DNA from: Limnothrix sp. FACHB-406 | Lineage (GTDB): Bacteria; Cyanobacteriota; Cyanobacteriia; CACIAM-69d | Reading direction: 5' to 3' | Length of the DNA: 64,000 nucleotides | Assembly (NCBI RefSeq): GCF_014698235.1 | Contig: NZ_JACJSP010000001.1 | Location: 248,001-312,000 of the forward strand | Part shown: piece by piece, positions 16,781-29,483 of the stretch | How positions within the stretch are numbered: the stretch's first letter is position 1 | Layout of the letters: each line of letters opens with the position of its first letter | Made by a program: the position numbers and the translations under genes | The notes under the pieces: generated by a model | The model's database searches: none | What the model was told of the DNA's origin: nothing | The model's input: the letters and a program-made list of their open reading frames with translations, nothing else

Positions 16781-17074
16781 ATGACACTCAACGACTTAAC
16801 CCCAGTGCTCAGAGCACGCATCAAAGAAATTGCGGCGCAACACGGAGCCTACAATGTCCGCATTTTTGGCTCCGTTGCCCGTGGGCAGGCTGATCACCAT
16901 AGCGATCTGGATCTATTGGTGGATTACGATCTCAGTCGCATTAGTCCTTGGTTTCCGGTGGGGTTGATTCGAGATTTAGAAGACTTACTCGCCATTAGAG
17001 TTGATGTGGTGACTCCTGCCGGTTTGAAAGATCGAATTCGCCAAGAGGTTTTACAAGAAGCCTGCCCCTTATGA
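16781..17074 (+). CDS. mntA: MNT-type nucleotidyltransferase antitoxin
   Basis: A 97-residue minimal nucleotidyltransferase. The catalytic signature is [20 protein letters not shown] (Gly30-Ser31, Asp42, Asp44), with a third acidic residue likely in RVDVV. In characterised MntA-HepT systems the antitoxin adds AMP to a Tyr of the HEPN toxin and silences its RNase activity. The stop overlaps the next start (ATGA), so the pair is translationally coupled. The pair was apparently inserted upstream of proS, with duplication of the proS start. Confidence 0.9.
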
Positions 17075-17400
17075 GAAATGACCTTGAGCGAATCAAAGAT
17101 ATCCAAGAGGCTATTCAAAAAATAGAAAAATATGCACAAAGAGGTGAGAAAGAGTTTTTTGAAAATGAATTAATTCAAGGCTGGATCCTACTTCAACTAC
17201 AAATTATTGGCGAGGCGGCAAGAGCGATCAGCAGGGAAACCTATAGTCAATACCCAAATATTGCTTGGCGTGATATTATTGGCTTCCGAAATCTCTTGGT
17301 TCATGAATACTTTCGAGTTGATCTAAGAATTGTTTGGAGAATTGTTGATCAAGAGATTCCTGAATTGAAATCTCAAATTCAAGTCATTCTTGACTCATAA
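17071..17400 (+). CDS. hepT: HEPN (DUF86) toxin
   Basis: A 109-residue HEPN-domain RNase toxin. The active motif RNLLVHEY places Arg73, His78 and Tyr80 in the R-x4-H-x-Y arrangement; in the family Arg/His form the nuclease site and the Tyr is the AMPylation target. The rest is helical, with IIGEAARAIS typical of DUF86. More AT-rich than its neighbours. It overlaps mntA by 4 bp and follows it in the same operon. Confidence 0.9.
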   Translation: MRNDLERIKDIQEAIQKIEKYAQRGEKEFFENELIQGWILLQLQIIGEAARAISRETYSQYPNIAWRDIIGFRNLLVHEYFRVDLRIVWRIVDQEIPELKSQIQVILDS

Positions 17401-18175: not shown

Positions 18176-18895
18176 CTATCGATAACTCGGCAGGGCATCG
18201 TTAGCAATTTCAAAAAATGCAGGCTGAATCGCGCGGCGGGTTTCCACCAAATCAGAGGCACCTTGATAGAGCAAGCTATCTGATGCATCCAACCAACGTT
18301 GAGGCTTCCCAGAGCGTCCTGCTTCAGGAATCCGCAAGCCATCAACAAGCCAACCAACGGTATCTCTTCTGAGACGGTCTAAGGAACTGCTGTAGGTCAA
18401 TCCCAGATCATGAGCTATTTGGCGATGCACAGCCGCATGGACAGACTCATCACCAGAAATATCGCCCGAGATGATTCCTAAACCCACACCACCAAACATC
18501 CGAAGCAAGGGCAAAATCACAAAGAAAACAGAATTTTCTAATACAAAGGCCTTAACCAGCGGGTGATCAGGATGATTAATCCATTGCTGGTGAATTTGCT
18601 TGGCTGTTTCTTCATCTCTATCTGTCGTTAATTGATAGATTTGAGCGGCCATGCCTAATACTTTGTCGTGCCGTTCCTCGTCCAGAATATTAGAGCGCAG
18701 ACATTCAACTGCTGTTGCTGGAAGTGTCGTTTTACCCAAAGCCTCGTCTAGCCATTCCGCCACTTCTAATTCAAGAATGCGCAGAGCCAGGGCCCGCCCC
18801 AAAACTTGATCTGCCCCCGGCACTGTATTCATTTTTTCGCCACAAGTGGGTGTCCAAGAGCGCTTACGAGCTAATTGTTCAGTGTAAAAGTCCAT
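18176..18895 (-). CDS. Ferritin-like ribonucleotide reductase small subunit (R2-like), no radical Tyr
   Basis: A 239-residue helical protein with a complete dimetal ligand set: Glu42, Glu73-x2-His76 (DEERH), Glu120 (VLENSVFFVILP) and Glu150-x2-His153 (DESVH). Spacing Glu42 to Glu73 is 31, as in E. coli R2 Asp84 to Glu115. In R2 the radical Tyr sits four residues after the His; here that residue is Leu80. A Glu first ligand with a non-Tyr residue recalls class Ic (Mn/Fe) subunits. A Tyr near the C-terminus (Tyr238) could serve radical transfer. It is much shorter than the usual 320-375 residues. The start has AAAGGA seven bases upstream. It follows the large-subunit gene by 12 bp. R2-like oxidase is the alternative. 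Confidence 0.75.
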   Translation of the reverse strand: MDFYTEQLARKRSWTPTCGEKMNTVPGADQVLGRALALRILELEVAEWLDEALGKTTLPATAVECLRSNILDEERHDKVLGMAAQIYQLTTDRDEETAKQIHQQWINHPDHPLVKAFVLENSVFFVILPLLRMFGGVGLGIISGDISGDESVHAAVHRQIAHDLGLTYSSSLDRLRRDTVGWLVDGLRIPEAGRSGKPQRWLDASDSLLYQGASDLVETRRAIQPAFFEIANDALPSYR

Positions 18896-18907: not shown

Positions 18908-20287
18908 CTATTCAGCACAAGCAACACATTCGTCAGCCGCCAGATCGCAAGTGACCTGTTTCTGTTGAATGATGGTTTTATCAAGGGCAACCTGCTGACG
19001 GACTGGTAATCGATAGTAGGTTGTCCAGAGAGCCGATCTCATCCATTGTTCTAGGAAAGCTTGATCAATCACCTGGGTATCCCAAACGTTAAAGGATATC
19101 GAGTGAGCCTGTCCCGTCGCTTCCATACTTTGCTGCCAACAATTGGCCAATCGGAAATAGTCCTCATACCCCACTTCTGAAGCAATTTCTACTCGGGGAT
19201 GATGATCATAGGTTTGAATCCCAAAAACGCCACTGTAGCGATCGACTTCACAGGCGATCGGGGGGCTAATTTCCGGTGTTGTTGTGTAGCCGTCGCGATC
19301 AACATAGCGATAAGCACAGGAAGCCGTTGGCGCAATTGTTAGACTGCGCTCCATTCCCTTTTTTCGGGCCCAAGCCGCAGCACGATCGAACCCTTCAATC
19401 AGACTGCCCACTAATCGATCGGCCTTGGTTTGATTTTTGGTGTGGTCGATCGGCCGCAGGCGCAATTCCCAAGCTTCAACTAACTCATGATAAGTAATCC
19501 CTTCGATCGCCAAAAGCGATGCCAAGCCGATTACCCCCAACCCCACCTGTCGATCGTGTTCGGGCGATCGATAAAGGCCGCTCTCACCCACACCAGTCAC
19601 AGGGTGAATTGCACAGAGCATCTTCATACCATGCTCGAAAGCATCAGGAATATCCTCAATGCAGCACATTCCCAAGTTGACATGCTGCAGCAAACAGGTT
19701 CCCCGTGACGGCAAGAAGATTTCATTGCAAACATTGCCATACAGCAAATTTCCCGCAGCGTCAGTCCGAGCTTTAGAGAGCCACAAACTGCCGGATTGCA
19801 TTTGCTCCATGATGTCATTTAGGTATGGCAATTGCAGCAAATCATCATGGACAATTAGCGTGCGTTTAGCCCAAGGCAAGCGATCAATTGGAATATTAAT
19901 AAAGTCCTGAGCATCGGGGTGATGACTATCCAGATGCAAATTGACCGCTCCGTTTTTAAATCGGCCGCCCCGGCGGATCGTCTCATTCAGAACACTGTAA
20001 ATGCGGGCAAAAGATGTGGGGCCAGAGGCCGTGACATTCGGCGAAACCGTACCAGCGGGCCGCAGCGCTGACAAGTTGATCGCGACACCGGCCCCATAGC
20101 GGAGGGCCTGGCTCGTGAAATGCCAACTGTCTTCGATGCCATCCGGGCCATCCATTCGATCCTGCACAGCCAGAACCGTGCAGCTCACGGGCAATCGCCC
20201 CGCAGGATCATGTAGCCAATGATCCACTCGCCCTGTCACTGCCACGGTGGGATGGTCTGCCAATGCCAAAATTGACTGCTTATTCAT
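18908..20287 (-). CDS. Compact ribonucleotide reductase catalytic subunit
   Basis: A 459-residue enzyme expected to reduce ribonucleotides to deoxyribonucleotides. Active-site elements: SC at Cys36, the NVCNEI motif (Asn185, Cys187, Glu189), the resolving Cys198, the loop TIAPTASCAYRY, the class I-type YY dyad (Tyr424-Tyr425 in WTTYYRLP) and a C-terminal CVAC (Cys454, Cys457). The N-terminal ATP cone and most of the helical N-terminal region are absent; typical class I large subunits exceed 700 residues. The Cys187 to Cys198 spacing of 11 resembles class II enzymes, but the YY dyad and the adjacent R2-like gene argue for class I. The ATG at 20287 is chosen; an in-frame TTG lies 18 bases upstream. 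It is in an operon under a cobalamin riboswitch. Confidence 0.82.
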   Translation of the reverse strand: MNKQSILALADHPTVAVTGRVDHWLHDPAGRLPVSCTVLAVQDRMDGPDGIEDSWHFTSQALRYGAGVAINLSALRPAGTVSPNVTASGPTSFARIYSVLNETIRRGGRFKNGAVNLHLDSHHPDAQDFINIPIDRLPWAKRTLIVHDDLLQLPYLNDIMEQMQSGSLWLSKARTDAAGNLLYGNVCNEIFLPSRGTCLLQHVNLGMCCIEDIPDAFEHGMKMLCAIHPVTGVGESGLYRSPEHDRQVGLGVIGLASLLAIEGITYHELVEAWELRLRPIDHTKNQTKADRLVGSLIEGFDRAAAWARKKGMERSLTIAPTASCAYRYVDRDGYTTTPEISPPIACEVDRYSGVFGIQTYDHHPRVEIASEVGYEDYFRLANCWQQSMEATGQAHSISFNVWDTQVIDQAFLEQWMRSALWTTYYRLPVRQQVALDKTIIQQKQVTCDLAADECVACAE

Positions 20288-20387
20288 AAATGAAAGAGGA
20301 CACAATGAGCTAGCTCATTCATCGAGCTGATAGGCCGAATCAATCATCAACCTTGAAATTTTTGGTGTTAATTCAGCTCCTATCGAG

Positions 20388-20822
20388 TTAAGAAGCCAAA
20401 TTAAACTCTGACCAGCGATCGCACACTTGGCGATAACACTCAGAAGGCGCAATTGCTAGGTTTTGCAGCCAGTCAATCTCAACCTCTTGACCGTGCTTGA
20501 CCAAAATCAAAATTTCTCGATCGGGTGCATAGGTTTTGATTGTGTTCAACAGGCGATCGATTGAACTAACAGGCACAAGGCAAAGGTCAAGATATAAAGC
20601 AGCAAGGTCAAACGGAATATATTGCACAGACCTTGCTGTTACATTCTCAATCCAGCCCAAGCGAGTAGTCACCGTTTCTTTCGCCGCACAAGCCACGATT
20701 CCTCGTCCATGTTTGAGGTAGCCCTGCCATGCAACATAGCCGATATACAGGAAGTTTTCCTGAATAAAAGTAGGTGACTCAACAGTCAGGTCAGGCAACC
20801 TTGAACTAGTGGGATGAATCAT
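20388..20822 (-). CDS. Unknown protein, paralogue of 17607-18074
   Basis: A 144-residue protein overlapping the end of metE by 17 bp, with GGGAAG just upstream of its ATG. No known family recognised. It shares with the last operon gene the N-terminal pattern F-x3-N-x4-GY-x-AW-x2-YL-x2-GRG-x-V-x-C, the central Y-x-P-x5-ILVKHG segment and the C-terminal Y-x2-VC-x4-EF. It looks like a small alpha/beta cytosolic protein. The two paralogues bracket the two ribonucleotide reductase genes, so they may be regulators, assembly factors or subunits; no direct evidence. Confidence 0.72.
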   Translation of the reverse strand: MIHPTSSRLPDLTVESPTFIQENFLYIGYVAWQGYLKHGRGIVACAAKETVTTRLGWIENVTARSVQYIPFDLAALYLDLCLVPVSSIDRLLNTIKTYAPDREILILVKHGQEVEIDWLQNLAIAPSECYRQVCDRWSEFNLAS

Positions 20823-23055
20823 GAATTTCTTCCCGTAGCTTTTGCGTGGCGAGCACCATATTTTTGAGCGCAGGAAGCACTTCTTCCCACTGGCGAGTTT
20901 TTAGCCCGCAGTCAGGATTAATCCAGGTTTGCTGAACAGGCAAAAGATCAACACCAGTGCGCAACTGTTGGAGAATTTGCTCCACACTAGGAACGCTTGG
21001 GCTGTGGACATCATAGACCCCGTTCCCAACTTGATACTGATATCCAGCATCCGTAATTTCAAAGAGCGTTGCGTTGTTGCTGCGGCTATTTTCAATGGAT
21101 AGAACATCAGCATCTAGACGCTCAATGTGCTCAATAATGTCTCCAAACTCGGAATAGCACATGTGCGTGTGAATCTGGGTTTCAGCCTTCGCGCCACCGG
21201 TGGCTAATCGGAACGAATCCACAGCCCAACTGAGGTACTCATTCCACCGGGCAGATTTCAAGGGCAACCCTTCCCGGAGAGCCGGTTCATCCACTTGCAC
21301 CATGGCAGCTCCGGCGGCTTCCAAATCGGCAACCTCATCTCGTAAAGCCAGCGCAATCTGCATGGCCTGTTCACGGCGCGGGAGGTCAGCTCGGGGAAAT
21401 GACCAATTGATCATTGTGACTGGGCCAGTGAGCATTCCCTTCACTGGCTTGTTTGTCAACGATTGTGCAACTCGGAATTCCCGAACGGTCATGGGTTGCA
21501 AGCGGGACACATCACCATAAATGATGGGTGGGCGCACACAACGACTGCCATAACTCTGCACCCATCCATCCGTTGTGAAGGCAAAGCCCTGGAGTTGCTG
21601 TCCAAAATACTCCACCATGTCAGTCCGCTCAAATTCACCGTGGACTAGCACATCTAGCCCAACTTCCTCTTGGCGCTTGATGCACTCTGCAATCTTGATA
21701 TCGATCGCCTGGTGATAGTCTGTTTGGGAAATTTCTCCCTTTTTGTATCGGAGCCGCAGTTGTCGGATGTCTTGGGTTTGAGGAAAAGAACCGATCGTGG
21801 TGGTGGGCAAGGGAGGGAGTTTGGGTTGCCGATTCAGTCGTTGCTCATAGGGAAGGGAGCGCTGAAAATTCTCTACTTTTAGGGTTTGCAACACGTCGCG
21901 CACCACCGGATTGGGCAAGTTAAAGCGCTTGAATGCCTGCCAACGCAACTCGATCGCCGCTTGCTCATGGGCAATGTCTTGTCCGTTGAGGCCCCTGGCC
22001 AGCAACACCACTTCCGTTAACTTTTGCTCCGCAAAGCTGAGGACATCGCGCAAAGGTTGGGGGAGTTGAGTTTCGCAGGTTGCATCATGGGGAACGAACT
22101 GGAGCGACGCGGAGGGCTGAACGCGCAAATTTGGTGTGATTGCCTGCAATTCCTGAAGCAGTTCCAGCAGTCCCTTGGGTTCAATTGCCCAAACGCTCCG
22201 CCCGTCCACAACACCGGCCCCAAGCACTTTGTCGCGAGGAATGCCATGGGCTTTCACTAAAGACAGATTGTTGCCTCGCGTGAAATCGAGGCTAACTCCA
22301 GCTACCGGGAGCTGCATCACCCAGCTATAGGCATCCCCCAGATCATCAAAGTAGGTCACCAGTTGAATCGGCAGCCCCGCAGTTGCTAGCTGATGGTAGG
22401 TATGTTTAATGGCAGTTTCTAAATCGCCGGCATGACTGGTCACCAAGGCTGGCTCATGGAATTGCACCTCGGTGATTCCCAGAGATTTCAACTGCCCCAG
22501 CAGGTCAAGGTAGAGAGGCAGCAACCGATCCAAATCTGAGTAGAGATCGTTGGAGCGCCGACTGAGGGTGAGCAGCGTGACCGGACTGAGGATCACGGGA
22601 GTCGCCCGATCGCGGAGAATGAGCTGTGCTCGCTTGACCGTTGCCAGAAAATCATCGAAATTGGCCGCGGGAGCAAGATCAGACTCAATTTCGGGCACGA
22701 GATAGTGATAGTTGGTATCAAACCATTTCGTCATTTCGAGGGCAGGAATCCCGTCTTTGCCCCTGGCCATAGCAAAGTACTGATCAATGCCTGTGAACTG
22801 CCGAAACCGAGCGGGAATTAACCCCAGACGCACCGACCAATCTAGAACGTGGTCGTAAAGAGTTTGGTCTCCGACGGCAATTCGATCGACCCCAGCCTTT
22901 AACTGGGTTATCCAAGCGTGGGTTTCCACGGCTTCTACGACCGATCGCAAGGCGCTGATCTCACACTTGCCATACCAAAAAGACTCTAGGGCCTTTTTGA
23001 CTTCACGATTTTTACCCATGCGGGCATAGCCCAAGGTGGCGGTTTGAATAACCAT
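20806..23055 (-). CDS. metE: Cobalamin-independent methionine synthase
   Basis: A 749-residue enzyme transferring the methyl group of 5-methyltetrahydropteroyl-triglutamate to homocysteine without B12. The zinc ligands His631, Cys633, Glu655 and Cys716 fit the spacing of E. coli MetE (641, 643, 665, 726). The N-terminus TATLGYARMGKNREVKKALESFWYGK and the core TTTIGSFPQTQDIRQLR, INWSFPRADLPR and VQVDEPALREGLPL are typical; both barrels are complete. AGGAG lies ten bases before the ATG. It is the first gene of the operon after a cobalamin riboswitch, so it should be repressed when B12 is plentiful and MetH can work. Confidence 0.97.
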   Translation of the reverse strand: MVIQTATLGYARMGKNREVKKALESFWYGKCEISALRSVVEAVETHAWITQLKAGVDRIAVGDQTLYDHVLDWSVRLGLIPARFRQFTGIDQYFAMARGKDGIPALEMTKWFDTNYHYLVPEIESDLAPAANFDDFLATVKRAQLILRDRATPVILSPVTLLTLSRRSNDLYSDLDRLLPLYLDLLGQLKSLGITEVQFHEPALVTSHAGDLETAIKHTYHQLATAGLPIQLVTYFDDLGDAYSWVMQLPVAGVSLDFTRGNNLSLVKAHGIPRDKVLGAGVVDGRSVWAIEPKGLLELLQELQAITPNLRVQPSASLQFVPHDATCETQLPQPLRDVLSFAEQKLTEVVLLARGLNGQDIAHEQAAIELRWQAFKRFNLPNPVVRDVLQTLKVENFQRSLPYEQRLNRQPKLPPLPTTTIGSFPQTQDIRQLRLRYKKGEISQTDYHQAIDIKIAECIKRQEEVGLDVLVHGEFERTDMVEYFGQQLQGFAFTTDGWVQSYGSRCVRPPIIYGDVSRLQPMTVREFRVAQSLTNKPVKGMLTGPVTMINWSFPRADLPRREQAMQIALALRDEVADLEAAGAAMVQVDEPALREGLPLKSARWNEYLSWAVDSFRLATGGAKAETQIHTHMCYSEFGDIIEHIERLDADVLSIENSRSNNATLFEITDAGYQYQVGNGVYDVHSPSVPSVEQILQQLRTGVDLLPVQQTWINPDCGLKTRQWEEVLPALKNMVLATQKLREEIHDSSH

Positions 23056-23625: not shown

Positions 23626-23661
23626 TAAAAGCTTGACGACCCAATTTTCTGGGGGTCGTCA
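23626..23661 (-). terminator. Leader hairpin, probable riboswitch-controlled attenuator
   Basis: Read on the minus strand, TGACGACCC (23661-23653) and GGGTCGTCA (23642-23634) form a 9-bp stem with a 10-base loop, followed by AGCTTTT. It lies downstream of the cobalamin aptamer, as expected for an intrinsic terminator in the leader of the metE operon. The T run is short, so strength is uncertain. Confidence 0.6.
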
Positions 23662-23714
23662 GCAAAATGCTGTAGGTTCATCTGTACCTCGCAGATGTGT
23701 GGTGCTTTGTAGGA

Positions 23715-23850
23715 TTGAATCGGCGGGCATTCTGACTCGGAGAAACGCTTCTCCTTCACAGCTGCGGGACAGTGCCGGATTTACACCGAACTTTCCCCGT
23801 TACCTCTGGCGGCTGCTCCCCGCTAGAACCGACTCGGTGCAGTATAGCAT
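23715..23850 (-). ncRNA. Cobalamin riboswitch
   Basis: On the minus strand the conserved core reads GGGAAAGTTCGGTGTAAATC, then CGGCACTGTCCCGCAGCTGTGA, a GGAGAAGC-TTCTCC hairpin and the B12-box-like AGTCAGAATGCCCGCC. The closing helix is formed by GAGTCGG (near 23835-23829) and CCGATTC (23723-23717). A further small hairpin, CATCTG/CAGATG (23679-23697), follows. All downstream genes on this strand (metE to 17607) can be read as one unit, so cobalamin binding should switch off B12-independent methionine synthesis and the compact ribonucleotide reductase. Confidence 0.93.
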
Positions 23851-23930
23851 CGTTTCCCCAACTTTCAGCGCTGGTGAGATGGGAATTCATCAATGCTCAC
23901 CTTTTGGGCAGGAGTCTATTGGAGACTGAA

Positions 23931-26900
23931 CTATCGGGTGTCGCCAATCAGGGTGAAGGCGGCCCAGTCGATCGGGTCGGGATATTCCTGAATGGTTCTT
24001 AGGGTGGCTTGGCGCAGGGCCGCCGCCTTGTCCATTCCTTGCCCCAGGAATTGATAGAACTGGGTCATCAGGAAGGCGGTGGGTGCGTCGGGCACGGCCC
24101 ATTGGGTGACGATCGCGCTGGGGGTTCCGGCCGCCAGGAGCGATCGGGATAGGCCCACAATCCCATCACCGGAAATTGCCCCCTGGCCAGTGTTGCAGGC
24201 GCTGAGAACGACTAACTGCGCCTTCAAGTCCAGGTTCAGTAGTTCTCGGGCGGTCAGCCAACCATCATCCCCTGGGCTGTTGCTGGGGGCCAGGGCGATC
24301 GCGCTGTCTAGGCCATGTTTCGCATCCAGAATTCCATGGGTGGCCAAGTGGATCAGGCTGGCTTGCTCCATTTGCCCCAGGACGGCGGCTTTGGTGGCTT
24401 GGGATCCCAACAGGGGACGAGCGTTCAACATGTGGGCGATTGATTGGGCTTCGATTTCCGCATTGGGCAGCGGGGCCAATTGCGATCGAGTATTGGATCG
24501 GCTGCTGGGTAGACGCGGCATGGTTGGATTACCCACGATCAAGGGGCGATCGGTCAGGGCTGTTCCTCCCTGGCGCAGGCGCTGGGCCTGGCGTTGGGTG
24601 CGATCGAGCACTTGAATTGAAGGAGCCATGGCCAAACTGTGGCGCTCGATGAGATATCGGCCTTGATCATCTTGCAGGGCAGAAAAGGGCACCAGGAACA
24701 GATCCTGCTGGGGCATCACAATCAATTGATCGCCCGGTTGGGTGGGTAACCATTCGGCGATCGGCTCAATCAACAGGCGATGGAGCTGGCGCAAACCGGG
24801 GGTAATCGATCGCCGGTTGCCGTTCACCGTGGACTGGGCTGATCGGCTGGCGGTGCGTGTTCCCAAAAACAACCGCAACAGGGGAATTTGATCGCGTAGG
24901 GTTTGGCTGTTGGGCAAGGGCACTTGGCGAAAATGCACCTGTCCCGAAGGTTGCACCACCCAAATATTGATGGCTAAGTCGAGGAGCTGGCGTTGGCCCT
25001 CGTGGTCTCGGGTATCCCGCTCGATCGCGTAGGAAATCAGCGTGGCGGACTGCTCGCGGGCCACCCGCTGAATTTGCCCTAGGTCGATCGAGTCCGTCAA
25101 TTCCGATGGATTGGGAGTTGGGGCCGATCGCGCGGCGGATCGATCGCCCCATTGGCTTTCCTCCGCCAACAGTTTCAAGAGGGCTTGGGCCCGACCCCGT
25201 TCATTGGCCAGCAGGGCCTGTTCCGGTTTTTGGGCCGCAATCAACACCGTTTGCAAGGTGCTGTAGGTGGTTTCTTGGGTTTCAAAAATCGCCAGCCGGG
25301 CCCCATCGCTGGTCAGGTTCTCGCGCACCTGTTCCCAAGAGGCGATCGCCCGTTGCAGATAATCCGTGGCCGCGTCAAAGTCTTGGAGTCGATAGTATGT
25401 ATCTCCCAGGTTAGACAGGGCCCGCGCCGTACCGTGGCGATCGCCCAAGGCCTGGGACAGGGCCAGGGCCTTTTGTTGAACCGTGGCCGCAGTTCCATAG
25501 TCCCCTTGGGCATAGTAGGCCAAGCCCAAATTATCGAGGGTGCGGGCGATCGCCGGTTGATCGTTCGCCTGTTCCGCCAGGGCCAAACTGGCCTGATGGG
25601 CTTTCACGGCCGCCTCGTAGCGCGTGGCTTGGTAATCCAGCAGGCCAATTTGGGTGAGGGCGCGGGCTTGGTTGCTCAGATCCTGATGCTGCTGGGCGAT
25701 CGCCAAGGACTGTGCAAAATAGGCGCGGGCTTGCTCCAGGTTTTGTTGATTGGTCGCCATCAGACCCAAGTTATTCAGGATATTGCTTTCCAACGTGGGC
25801 GCAGGGTTCGATCGCAACAGGGCCAAGGCCTGCTCATAATGGGCGATCGCCTCTGGGTATTGACCCAAAGCCCCATAACTACTGCCCAGGTCACTTTCCG
25901 CGATCGCGGCCAACAGGGGCTGATCCGTTGCCAAATCACGACTTTCACGATGGGCCAAAATCGCATCGCCATATTCACCCGCTTGGTAGTGGGCCCGACC
26001 CAACCGCTGCAAGGCCACCACGATCGCCTTGCGATCGCCACTGTTGCGGGCCCGCTCAAGGTCTTTGCGTTGGCAATCTAACCAAACGGTGTTGTCGCAA
26101 AGGGCTGCTTGCAGGGTTTCGGCCCGCAAGGCTTGCAAATTCAACACTTGCCCTGGATCGGTTACTGAGCCGTTGGCGGGGATTCCCGAGGAATTTGTGC
26201 TCTCCAAACCGGGCGATCGAGACCCCAGTAAAGCCGTTTGGTTAATCGCCTGGTTGGTTTGGAAATCCACCACGCCGGCCGAATGGGCCAGGTTCGAGCC
26301 ACCCTCTCCAATTGCACCACTGTTAGGTAAGGGGTTACTGCTCACCGGTAGCCCCGTTGCCAAGGTTCCCACCATCGAGTTGTTGGCCGCATCCGTCACC
26401 CCCGAGGGCGGAACCAAAGGCGCTGCATTGGGAGACTGGCCGGAAGAAGGCGCGATCAATGGCGCGATCGACAAATTCGTGGATGTGGGAACTGCACTGG
26501 TCACAGGGGCCGCATTGCCAGCAACGCCGTTCACCGATGCCGGGTTCGCCGCAAAGGCAGCGGAGGCCAGATTCGCCCGCTGCACGATCGAATCGGAACT
26601 AATGGCCGCGCTTAGGTTATTGCCAATCAGGTTCGTATTCCCAGCATTGGCAGTTCCCGCCACTGGGCTACTCCCCCCCGCGCTCACCGGTTGTTCAGTG
26701 GTGTTGGCCAAGGTGGACTGCACTAACCCATCCACATTGGCGGCCCAAGGAGCCGAAATGGGTGCCTTGCCGGTAGAGAAATGGATTCCTTGATTGGTTG
26801 GTGTCAATAAGCCACCAAAGTTTGCTCCGTCAAGGCTGATGTTGACCGTAGCCACCGTGAATGAAGGGCCAGTGTTCCCGGTATTAGCGGTGTTGGAATT

Positions 26901-28733
26901 GTTGTTCACCACGATCGGCTTCACAGGCAAGAAAGCAGATCGATCGTCCTCATCCTCTGAATTGGTGGAATTGGTTGTGGTTGAGTCCACAGGGGCGATC
27001 GGGATCAAGCTAAAGGAAGTGTTCAGGCCGCTAACGGTGGTGTTGGTGGTGCTGGAATTGGAGCCAGTTTGCATGGGAGCCACCGGAATCAGCGACACTG
27101 AACTGCTCAGGGTTGGATTGGTACTGGGGGGATCGTTGGTTGTGCCGGGAATCAGGGTAATGGATCCGGGGTTGATCGTACCCGTTGTCCCTGTGCTCGT
27201 GCCCGTTGTTCCCGTGCCCGTGCCCGTTGTGCCCGTAGGGTTCAAAGGAACGACAGGGCGTAGGGTTGTGGAGCCAGTGCTGGTGCTGCTGCTGGAACTG
27301 GTGCTGCTGGGTGAGGGCGTAGTGGGTCTAGTGGTGGTGGTAGCAACCACGGGCGAGGAAATGAAGGGAGCGCGGTTGCTGCGGGCGGGTGTGGAGCCGA
27401 AGGCAAGGGTGGTTTGACCATCGCGATCGCTGAAGATCGGTTCAAAGACCGTGCGAAACAGCACCCGATCGCCCGTCGGTTGCGTCACAAACAATTGACC
27501 ACCCGTGCGCAGGGGCAAATTCCCGGCGATCGCCCCTGAACTCACTAAAAAAAGATTGAGATCACTGATGATGCCGCTGTCGGAGTGGTGCAAGCCGTAT
27601 AGATCCACCTGCCGATCGCCCCAGAGGGTCAACTGTCCCCCGGCGCTCAACCGCAAAGGATTCGTGGAATTGTCGCGCCCGATCGCCGCTTGTCCCGCCA
27701 GTAAATGTAAATCGCCCGTGGTGCTGAGCTGACTAGACAGCAGCAGCAAGTTATGGGCCGCCGACAGGGTGGCCGTTCCGGCCGTGGCTGACTGCACCGC
27801 CACATCACCCGCCGCCAAGGGGCCCTCAGAATGGCCGATCGAAACCGTGCCATCAGGCCGCACCGTCAAGGCATTGGCCGTGACCGGTTGCCCCGCCAGC
27901 AGTTCCGGAATGGTTCGCGGGGCGATCGGGTCCAACGCCAAATCCGCACCGGGCCGCCCCCCGATCGGCAAATCCAACGCCAGCACCGACCCTTCCGGCG
28001 TGAACCGCACAAAGCGATCGCCCGGAACCGCCGCCACCATCAGCCGCCCCCCCGGAGCCGACAGGGTTCCCACGCTCAAGACCGCGCCCCCCACCAAACT
28101 CAAGCTTTGGCCCGTTGGCACAGCCAGGGCCGCCCGGTTCAAAATTCCTGCCGGTTGCGACAGGGCAAACGCCAGCCCCGTTGGATCGCCCAACAAATTC
28201 GCGTATTGATTGGCTCCTGTCGCTTGGAACCAAAATTCCCCAGACTCACCAAAGCTCGCACCCGTGGCCGTGGTGGCCGTGAAGGAAGCGGGCACATTCA
28301 GCCGAGCATTGGGCCCAAACACCAAACCCGCTGGATTCACCAAAAACAGATTGGGGTTGCCACCGCTGACCTGGATGAGTCCATCAATTCGCGACGGATC
28401 GCCCCCCACCACACGCCCCAGAATGTTGCGCAAGTCCGGCGTGGCCAGGAAATTCGCAATTTCCTGGGTGTTGAGATTAAACCGCTCAAAGCTGTGGAAC
28501 AGGTTGGCCCCATCGCTCGATCGACTGCCGCCGCTGATATCTAAGCGATCGCCCTGGGGAGTCACCACCGTGCCCGTGCCGTCGGCCGCCGGGGCGATCG
28601 ACTGGGCCCAAACCGCCCCCGAGTCAGCACCCAGGCTCCCGATCGTCAAAAAACCCGCAATTCCCGCAATTAAACAGCCCCCAACACCTGCCCCCACGAA
28701 GGAGCAGCCACCTAAGTTCCGCAAGACATGCAT
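23931..28733 (-). CDS. TPS-secretion domain / TPR / CHAT protease fusion protein
   Basis: A 1600-residue protein with three parts. After a signal-like N-terminus ending in AQS, residues to about 300 form a filamentous-haemagglutinin TPS domain (FHSFERFNLNTQEIANF, LFLVNPAGLVFGPNARLNV), which normally directs two-partner secretion through an outer-membrane TpsB pore. A long Ser/Thr/Asn-rich low-complexity region follows. Roughly residues 900-1200 are TPR repeats (GDYGTAATVQQKALALSQAL and similar). The C-terminal CHAT domain has the caspase-like dyad His1466 (HLATHG) and Cys1513 (LSACNTG). The start at 28733 is preferred to an earlier in-frame codon because it leaves a normal signal peptide. Probably a secreted or surface-exposed protease; the TpsB partner is not in the window. 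Confidence 0.88.
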   Translation of the reverse strand: MHVLRNLGGCSFVGAGVGGCLIAGIAGFLTIGSLGADSGAVWAQSIAPAADGTGTVVTPQGDRLDISGGSRSSDGANLFHSFERFNLNTQEIANFLATPDLRNILGRVVGGDPSRIDGLIQVSGGNPNLFLVNPAGLVFGPNARLNVPASFTATTATGASFGESGEFWFQATGANQYANLLGDPTGLAFALSQPAGILNRAALAVPTGQSLSLVGGAVLSVGTLSAPGGRLMVAAVPGDRFVRFTPEGSVLALDLPIGGRPGADLALDPIAPRTIPELLAGQPVTANALTVRPDGTVSIGHSEGPLAAGDVAVQSATAGTATLSAAHNLLLLSSQLSTTGDLHLLAGQAAIGRDNSTNPLRLSAGGQLTLWGDRQVDLYGLHHSDSGIISDLNLFLVSSGAIAGNLPLRTGGQLFVTQPTGDRVLFRTVFEPIFSDRDGQTTLAFGSTPARSNRAPFISSPVVATTTTRPTTPSPSSTSSSSSTSTGSTTLRPVVPLNPTGTTGTGTGTTGTSTGTTGTINPGSITLIPGTTNDPPSTNPTLSSSVSLIPVAPMQTGSNSSTTNTTVSGLNTSFSLIPIAPVDSTTTNSTNSEDEDDRSAFLPVKPIVVNNNSNTANTGNTGPSFTVATVNISLDGANFGGLLTPTNQGIHFSTGKAPISAPWAANVDGLVQSTLANTTEQPVSAGGSSPVAGTANAGNTNLIGNNLSAAISSDSIVQRANLASAAFAANPASVNGVAGNAAPVTSAVPTSTNLSIAPLIAPSSGQSPNAAPLVPPSGVTDAANNSMVGTLATGLPVSSNPLPNSGAIGEGGSNLAHSAGVVDFQTNQAINQTALLGSRSPGLESTNSSGIPANGSVTDPGQVLNLQALRAETLQAALCDNTVWLDCQRKDLERARNSGDRKAIVVALQRLGRAHYQAGEYGDAILAHRESRDLATDQPLLAAIAESDLGSSYGALGQYPEAIAHYEQALALLRSNPAPTLESNILNNLGLMATNQQNLEQARAYFAQSLAIAQQHQDLSNQARALTQIGLLDYQATRYEAAVKAHQASLALAEQANDQPAIARTLDNLGLAYYAQGDYGTAATVQQKALALSQALGDRHGTARALSNLGDTYYRLQDFDAATDYLQRAIASWEQVRENLTSDGARLAIFETQETTYSTLQTVLIAAQKPEQALLANERGRAQALLKLLAEESQWGDRSAARSAPTPNPSELTDSIDLGQIQRVAREQSATLISYAIERDTRDHEGQRQLLDLAINIWVVQPSGQVHFRQVPLPNSQTLRDQIPLLRLFLGTRTASRSAQSTVNGNRRSITPGLRQLHRLLIEPIAEWLPTQPGDQLIVMPQQDLFLVPFSALQDDQGRYLIERHSLAMAPSIQVLDRTQRQAQRLRQGGTALTDRPLIVGNPTMPRLPSSRSNTRSQLAPLPNAEIEAQSIAHMLNARPLLGSQATKAAVLGQMEQASLIHLATHGILDAKHGLDSAIALAPSNSPGDDGWLTARELLNLDLKAQLVVLSACNTGQGAISGDGIVGLSRSLLAAGTPSAIVTQWAVPDAPTAFLMTQFYQFLGQGMDKAAALRQATLRTIQEYPDPIDWAAFTLIGDTR

Positions 28734-29483
28734 GGTAAGGACAACAAGCAGTGAGTAGGAGTCAGATCCAGCGAGATCAAGACGCAAGCAAAATCAAGAT
28801 GCCATCAAATCGCTGAAGTTTCTGGAGAGCTGCTCAACAAGCAACATACCCATTTTTCGCAAGAATTTGATCCCAGACGCTCCCTGGCCAGTCTAGAACA
28901 TTCGTTTATGAAATTTAGAAACGATGCAGGCTGTTCAAGATCCGGTTCTGAATCCATTCAAAAACTGATGAAACCGTCAATTAAATTACTGATCAAGTTC
29001 TATTATTAATTTTTCTCATTACAGACAAAAACGCCGAATTTTTCATTCGTAATTCTTTAGCGCAATGAATATCAGAACCAATGAATACAGCCCTTACCTC
29101 GATTAGTAGCCCGTAGGGTGGGCACTGCCCACCGAGCCGTTGCTTCATGGTATCTGTGATATGGCGTGCCAATTATTTTAGGTAAAGGCTGTATCAAGCG
29201 AATATCAGAATTAGACTTGAAACTCAGCCTCAAGTAACTGTGTGATCTTGTTGTGACTTTGCAATCAATTCTCAAATAAAAAAGATAAACCCTGATGACT
29301 GTCAGACTTTCTTGAGCATCCAAACAGGCATGGTGTCCAAAATTTCTGCCATTTTTGCAATTACTCGCAGCGCCAGAAATGATTGATCAATGCCATCGAT
29401 CCTTTGGATTACAAGTTTATGGCCTGCTTTTTTCACTAGTGAACAGAGCGAAAACCACACTCCCAAAAATCAGTTAAGCGCCT
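28734..29483. other. AT-rich intergenic region carrying a MITE-like element
   Basis: No gene is supported. The only structure found is the element at 29086-29193 (listed separately), flanked by an 11-bp direct repeat. Left of it (28790-29080) is simple AT-rich spacer that should hold the promoter of the TPS-CHAT gene. Confidence 0.45.
29086..29193. mobile_element. MITE-like element with 14-bp terminal inverted repeats
   Basis: The ends TACAGCCCTTACCT (29086-29099) and AGGTAAAGGCTGTA (29180-29193) are inverted repeats with one mismatch. The interior holds GTAGGGTGGGCACTGCCCACC, whose core GGTGGGCA-C-TGCCCACC (29117-29133) is a perfect hairpin. The 11-mer GAATATCAGAA occurs on both sides (29067-29077 and 29200-29210), a few bases outside the ends. 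There is no coding capacity. A matching end motif also occurs near 4375. Confidence 0.6.

Follow-up and report, generated by a model that had tools for sequence, protein, structure and literature searches.

Which class of ribonucleotide reductase does a cyanobacterium use when it carries an alpha subunit of only 459 residues that combines class I and class II features, and why would such a gene lie behind a cobalamin riboswitch? We addressed this question in Limnothrix sp. FACHB-406, using a stretch of 64,000 nucleotides (contig NZ_JACJSP010000001.1, positions 248,001 to 312,000; hereafter the window). An earlier note, made from the letters of the sequence, had described the gene as a minimal large subunit of mosaic character and possible phage origin.

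The alpha subunit belongs to class Ø

The alpha subunit gene occupies positions 18908..20287 of the window on the minus strand and encodes 459 aa from an ATG start. The coordinates and length given in the earlier note held, with one correction as to strand: read in the plus direction, 18908-20287 is full of stops. All catalytic residues that had been named are present (Cys36, Asn185/Cys187/Glu189, Cys198 and the C-terminal Cys454-x-x-Cys457), as is the Tyr424-Tyr425 dyad. An alignment of 18 alpha sequences (the window protein, a second Limnothrix protein and 16 from cyanophages) showed that N185, C187, E189, C198, Y424 and Y425 were invariant in 18/18 rows, and that C36 was found in all rows except one with a truncated annotated start. 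Phage S05C849, which has a truncated annotated start, was omitted from the trees.

The closest solved relative was the alpha subunit of phage S-CBP4 (PDB entry 7urg; E 3e-131), the next best match having an E-value of 4e-9. For a structure model (pLDDT 86.5) we combined the window protein with 19 further alpha subunits. In a PDB fold search with this model, 7urg again ranked first (E 6e-49), with 405 aligned columns and a TM-score, normalised by target, of 0.94. A Pfam search with E-values up to 0.1 returned the barrel domain PF02867 alone, with no N-terminal domain and no ATP-cone domain, in agreement with the earlier note. That note had also spoken of lacking allosteric regions, which proved too broad as far as the specificity site is concerned: the homologous S-CBP4 alpha subunit binds TTP at the normal specificity site, according to PMC9531940, and our model aligns with it.

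Cys187 and Cys198 are 11 residues apart, a spacing that had been recognised as class II-like and that equals the one in S-CBP4 (C185 and C196 in PMC9531940). The tail of the protein reads CVAC (CxxC, Cys454/Cys457); S-CBS4, SS120-1 and Syn5 are phages that share CxxC, and CxC is the form in most of the others. At 81 viral loci, drawn from the best of at least 595 and biased to close relatives, the alpha tails comprised 65 CXC, 14 CXXC and 2 open ends. Against the family models, the window protein scored 70.9 bits for TIGR02504 (class II; cut-off 399.95) and 51.8 bits for TIGR02506 (NrdE_NrdA, class I; cut-off 341.05), below the threshold of each. A small rooted tree separated the class Ø alpha subunits at 100/100, but its outgroup branches were extremely long, so that a position apart from classes I and II is tentative.

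The length, residues and tail of this protein are those of a lineage named clade or class Ø (eLife 2022, PMC9531940) and earlier called Cyano SP (PMC6370689). As described in PMC9531940, its hallmarks are a minimal alpha subunit (mean 412 aa), a double Cys tail, a ferritin-like gene immediately downstream, a Phe or Leu in place of the radical Tyr and a penultimate Tyr, and class Ø genes are already known in marine bacteria. The window alpha is a member of this class. The distinct lineage suggested by the class I/class II mosaic is therefore real and already published: the enzyme type itself is not new, and the mosaic is the published class Ø signature.

A ferritin-like beta subunit is encoded next to alpha

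The R2-like partner that the earlier note had anticipated starts 12 nt downstream of alpha. This class Ø ferritin-like beta (R2) subunit gene (18176..18895, minus strand) encodes 239 aa and matches phrog_6799 (E 5e-70). The protein keeps the ligand residues E42, E73, H76, E120, E150 and H153, with two EXXH motifs (E73xxH76 and E150xxH153). Leu80 occupies the site of the radical Tyr, and the penultimate residue is Tyr238 (chain end Tyr238-Arg). A model of beta had a pLDDT of 88.1, and R2 proteins filled the top of its PDB list at modest E-values (best 1.3e-3). The window beta had no Pfam match, so none to the Ribonuc_red_sm family, and PF00268 was matched weakly by 2 of 10 class Ø betas.

We then considered the viral relatives, of which the best 80 of at least 595 loci were kept, with counts biased to close relatives. 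A beta ORF was found at 78 of the 81 alpha loci from this best part and was adjacent to alpha in 76; the radical-Tyr position held Leu in 77 of these 78 betas and Phe in 1. A later viral set comprised 57 loci, of which 51 were used, L323-L328 (five short matches and the near-full L324) being left out; an alpha of >420 aa was present in 50 of the 51 and a beta in 44 of those 50. Some loci of this later set come from contigs already represented (L272 = L260, L305 = L088). The viral alphas in L280-L282 and L320 are 516 aa long and end in CEACGGD, with no beta ORF in the stretch examined. A class Ø-like beta (34% identity) is also encoded by Microcystis phage Mic1 (L115 5007-5777), where no neighbouring gene is annotated as alpha.

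The reductase genes follow a cobalamin riboswitch and metE

A cobalamin riboswitch (RF00174) lies at 23705..23848 on the minus strand and scored 60.9 bits, above the gathering score of 31.5. On the same strand it is followed by a hairpin, metE, a small gene (P0004), alpha, beta and a second small gene (P0003), which are predicted to be co-transcribed. The metE gene (20806..23055, minus strand) encodes a B12-independent methionine synthase of 749 aa (NF003556, 979 bits). It overlaps P0004 by 17 nt; 100 nt separate P0004 from alpha, and 80 nt separate beta from P0003. The sister genome, Limnothrix sp. CACIAM 69d (L002), has the identical gene order, a riboswitch of 61.5 bits and a leader 94% identical to that of the window. 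The distance from the riboswitch end to metE is ~650 nt, a long leader that speaks against a switched operon. Among 30 relatives searched, a cobalamin riboswitch lay 287-670 nt upstream of metE in 7 of the 8 that carry metE.

A terminator-like hairpin 3' of the riboswitch (23627..23661, minus strand; stem 23634-23661, TTTT 23627-23630; z -3.85) was absent from the list of the terminator scan. Its stem is retained in the sister genome, with a weaker T run. The scan listed no minus-strand terminator-like site between metE and alpha. Promoter-like hexamers just before the riboswitch (23841..23868, minus strand) were weak, with 4 found against 5.5 expected by chance, and the 100-nt gap between P0004 and alpha held one weak promoter-like match, not above chance. 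A structured attenuator in this gap was rejected, as folding there was not exceptional (z -1.71). The gap also contains a 16-nt palindrome (8+8; 20304-20319, minus strand), a possible operator, two bases of which differ in the sister genome.

Several other features were noted in the genome. A second strong cobalamin riboswitch (G000:C2:281176-281316; L092 2177-2317) has downstream of it genes for a His-rich membrane-type protein and a CobW-like GTPase, both named from ORF reading alone. Just downstream of the operon is a nucleotidyltransferase/HepT-like pair, a module of toxin-antitoxin type (16781-17400, plus strand), and 23931-28787 on the minus strand encodes a 1618-aa protein with a TPS secretion domain, TPR repeats and a CHAT domain.

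The reductase pair is an insertion relative to other metE operons

P0004 (20388..20822, minus strand) and P0003 (17607..18095, minus strand) encode small proteins that sequence comparison revealed to be paralogues (27% identity). Neither has a Pfam or PHROG family or comes near an NCBIfam cut-off. Their family occurs in 102 of 388 cyanobacterial genomes. Nine other metE genomes have a P0004-like and a P0003-like gene immediately after metE, with 22-79 nt between the two. This spacing is 2298 and 2304 nt in the two Limnothrix genomes, where the reductase pair occupies the space. Relative to these other genomes, the pair was inserted into an existing operon (riboswitch - metE - P0004 - P0003) of which both small genes are ancestral members; the metE operon without the reductase pair is the widespread state. 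In nine further tabulated metE genomes, a P0003-like gene is near metE and a P0004-like gene is missing; in one of these, G188, the P0003-like gene lies 3.7 kb from metE with other genes between.

We rejected the idea that P0003 and P0004 are phage genes: neither has a PHROG, and P0004, the one searched against phage records, had no phage match. They seem to form a family of the B12 regulon of cyanobacteria that has not been described before. Tandems of the P0004/P0003 type also stand behind a cobalamin riboswitch without metE in L263 and L269.

Distribution, selection and viral relatives

Of 388 cyanobacterial genomes surveyed, 2 encode a full-length class Ø alpha, and these belong to the genus of the window. 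G001 and L002, each 97% identical to the window and with contigs of equal length (42,340), were taken as one genome, giving two genomes in all. The third genome of the genus (G002) has neither class Ø nor metE, a point against a backup role. A scan of genome contigs with window-protein patterns alone returned L002 and one distant match of 33%, distant bacterial class Ø being beyond its reach. Between the two Limnothrix genomes, dN/dS was 0.054 for alpha and 0.047 for beta, 0.094 for metE, 0.25 for P0004 and 0.18 for P0003. Alpha and beta are under strong purifying selection.

Alpha matched 87 phage records at E 1e-5, all with <60% identity, and 56 of them covered >=80%. Its closest relatives outside Limnothrix are large viral contigs, with 51-55% identity: a contig of 150 kb (L260/L272) encodes an alpha 52% and a beta 51% identical to those of the window, and the alphas of L278 (154 kb) and L279 (101 kb) are 55% identical. 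These contigs group with the Limnothrix alpha at 100/100, although long branches meet there, which leaves the exact sister group unsure. Six of ten neighbouring ORFs from four of these viral contigs match phage families, including DNA polymerase, thymidylate synthase and HNH endonuclease. The relatives outside the genus agree with the phage origin that the earlier note had considered possible. Nesting inside the known cyanopodovirus group was not seen, Limnothrix branching separately with the large viral contigs, and a plasmid origin was rejected, as 0 out of 23 matching plasmid records hold most of the query. Transfer from virus to cell would be the simpler direction. The locus is likely an instance in which a cell took over an enzyme of phage DNA replication, whereas the usual account runs from host to phage.

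The genome also encodes B12-dependent counterparts

Searches with PF02867 and TIGR02504 had suggested that class Ø is the sole reductase of the organism. We rejected this, as a search with the RTPR model recovered a class II reductase gene that is intact (C1:467422-469683, 792 bits). MetH is also encoded in the genome, on C10. The operon therefore duplicates both B12-dependent functions with enzymes that are B12-independent or, for class Ø, predicted to be so. We found no further class I type reductase by PF02867 and no match to the class III family NRDD in this genome. The cobamide gene CobS is present, as in all 30 relatives searched; the genome therefore probably makes cobamide, which makes the need for a backup less certain.

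Full-size class I nrdA genes were found divergently beside a cobalamin riboswitch in three other cyanobacterial genomes of different families (G014, G188 and G374; L089 1020-3296, L261 10370-12724 and L262 14558-16813). These were chosen for a reductase match on the metE contig within ~10 kb, and are 3 of 9 other genomes with P0001 and metE matches. With nrdA on the opposite strand, they show nearness to the riboswitch, not shared control.

A proposed B12-independent backup reductase

We think it likely that the class Ø pair is a captured phage-lineage reductase that serves, within the metE operon, as a riboswitch-controlled, B12-independent backup. Alpha and the ferritin-like beta would have come from a large-phage lineage and entered an existing cyanobacterial operon. 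When cobamide is plentiful, the riboswitch would keep the operon low and the cell would rely on RTPR and MetH. A shortage of cobamide or cobalt would lead to expression of the operon, MetE then making methionine and the class Ø enzyme making deoxynucleotides. In an active enzyme, a metal centre in beta would generate the oxidant, and the radical would pass from Tyr238 of beta through Tyr424/Tyr425 of alpha to Cys187. Cys36 and Cys198 would reduce the sugar and would then be re-reduced by the C-terminal CxxC.

We weighed this backup role against four other explanations. It is highly improbable that alpha works with AdoCbl, as a minimal class II reductase, and that the ferritin-like gene is an incidental neighbour. 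The class II-like Cys spacing and the higher score with the class II than the class I model (70.9 vs 51.8 bits) agree with such an enzyme, but a beta ORF is present at 78 of 81 viral alpha loci from the best of at least 595, 76 of them adjacent, and the Tyr dyad is invariant in 18/18 rows. In S-CBP4, as reported in PMC9531940, these tyrosines stack beside the catalytic Cys and fill the class II adenosyl space. An AdoCbl enzyme behind a B12-repressed switch would, moreover, make no sense: a B12-dependent enzyme would be useless in an operon that B12 turns off, so the context argues for B12 independence of class Ø. Very unlikely, too, is a phage or prophage relic without a host role. Such a relic would explain why the nearest relatives outside Limnothrix are viral and why a single genus carries the genes. 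However, genes of the host operon flank the pair on both sides, the ORFs from metE to proS include no recognisable phage structural gene, dN/dS is ~0.05 for both genes between two species, and the same locus is found in an independent genome (L002/G001).

Two further explanations concern regulation and history. The pair might have a promoter of its own and act as a reductase for general use or for stress, with the riboswitch acting on metE alone, for which the 100-nt gap before alpha, with its weak promoter-like match and small palindrome, would provide room. We consider this unlikely, as promoter matches were below chance expectation (4 vs 5.5), no minus-strand terminator-like site was listed between metE and alpha, and the insertion preserved the direction of the operon. 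Alternatively, Limnothrix may have retained an old cellular class Ø gene that passed from cells to phages, a history compatible with the same function. The rooted tree favours neither direction of transfer, and the published clade, as presented in PMC9531940, takes in marine bacteria. This is nevertheless also unlikely, given that the gene is absent from a congener, from the rest of the family and, altogether, from 386 of the 388 cyanobacterial genomes searched, that the metE operon without the pair is widespread, and that viral relatives are many, with an adjacent group of large viral contigs supported at 100/100.

For the captured backup reductase, we lean towards a B12-independent, beta-dependent cellular enzyme, such that loss of B12 would swap methionine synthase and reductase together. 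If so, Limnothrix would offer a cellular class Ø enzyme under regulation, through which the proposed ancestral clade could be studied in vivo with respect to its metal use and radical chemistry. According to the authors of PMC9531940, the instability of beta in the absence of metals hindered its study. Whether class Ø depends on a metal centre in beta, like class I, or on B12, as its class II-like sequence might suggest, is the question about this class, and the B12-switch setting predicts B12 independence. This genomic argument for class Ø working without B12 is now testable genetically in a cell. It fits the proposal of Harrison et al. that phages carry the Cyano SP enzyme to avoid B12 dependence (PMC6370689), in that escape from B12 would be the benefit of this enzyme.

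Comparison with known systems

A literature search that covered few subscription journals yielded no publication on a class Ø-type reductase controlled by a B12 riboswitch or occurring in Limnothrix. Judged from sequence, what appears to be new is the chromosomal, metE-linked setting behind a B12 riboswitch, together with the function that this setting suggests.

The Limnothrix pair resembles that of S-CBP4 in its minimal alpha without an ATP cone, N-C-E finger loop, 11-residue Cys spacing, Tyr dyad and C-terminal double Cys, and in its short downstream beta with a Leu at the radical site and a penultimate Tyr. By contrast, the Limnothrix alpha is ~50% identical to that of S-CBP4, has a shorter C-terminal tail and forms its own sublineage with large viral contigs; its pair lies in a chromosomal riboswitch-metE operon, whereas that of S-CBP4 lies in a phage replication module.

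The control of a MetE/MetH pair by a cobalamin riboswitch is a tested case, as described in PMC9600662. In the cyanobacteria PCC 7002 and PCC 11901, a cobalamin riboswitch likewise precedes metE, the B12-independent counterpart of MetH (PMC7205611); no reductase is mentioned in the available text of that paper, whereas in Limnothrix a reductase pair sits between the two small genes. In Streptomyces, the class Ia genes nrdABS are under a B12 riboswitch and the class II reductase NrdJ is also present (PMC4991794, citing Borovok et al. 2006). Limnothrix shares with this system, as it is described there, a B12 riboswitch before a B12-independent reductase and a class II reductase in the same genome. 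The Streptomyces reductase, however, is of class Ia and has its own riboswitch, whereas in Limnothrix a class Ø reductase was added to the metE operon.
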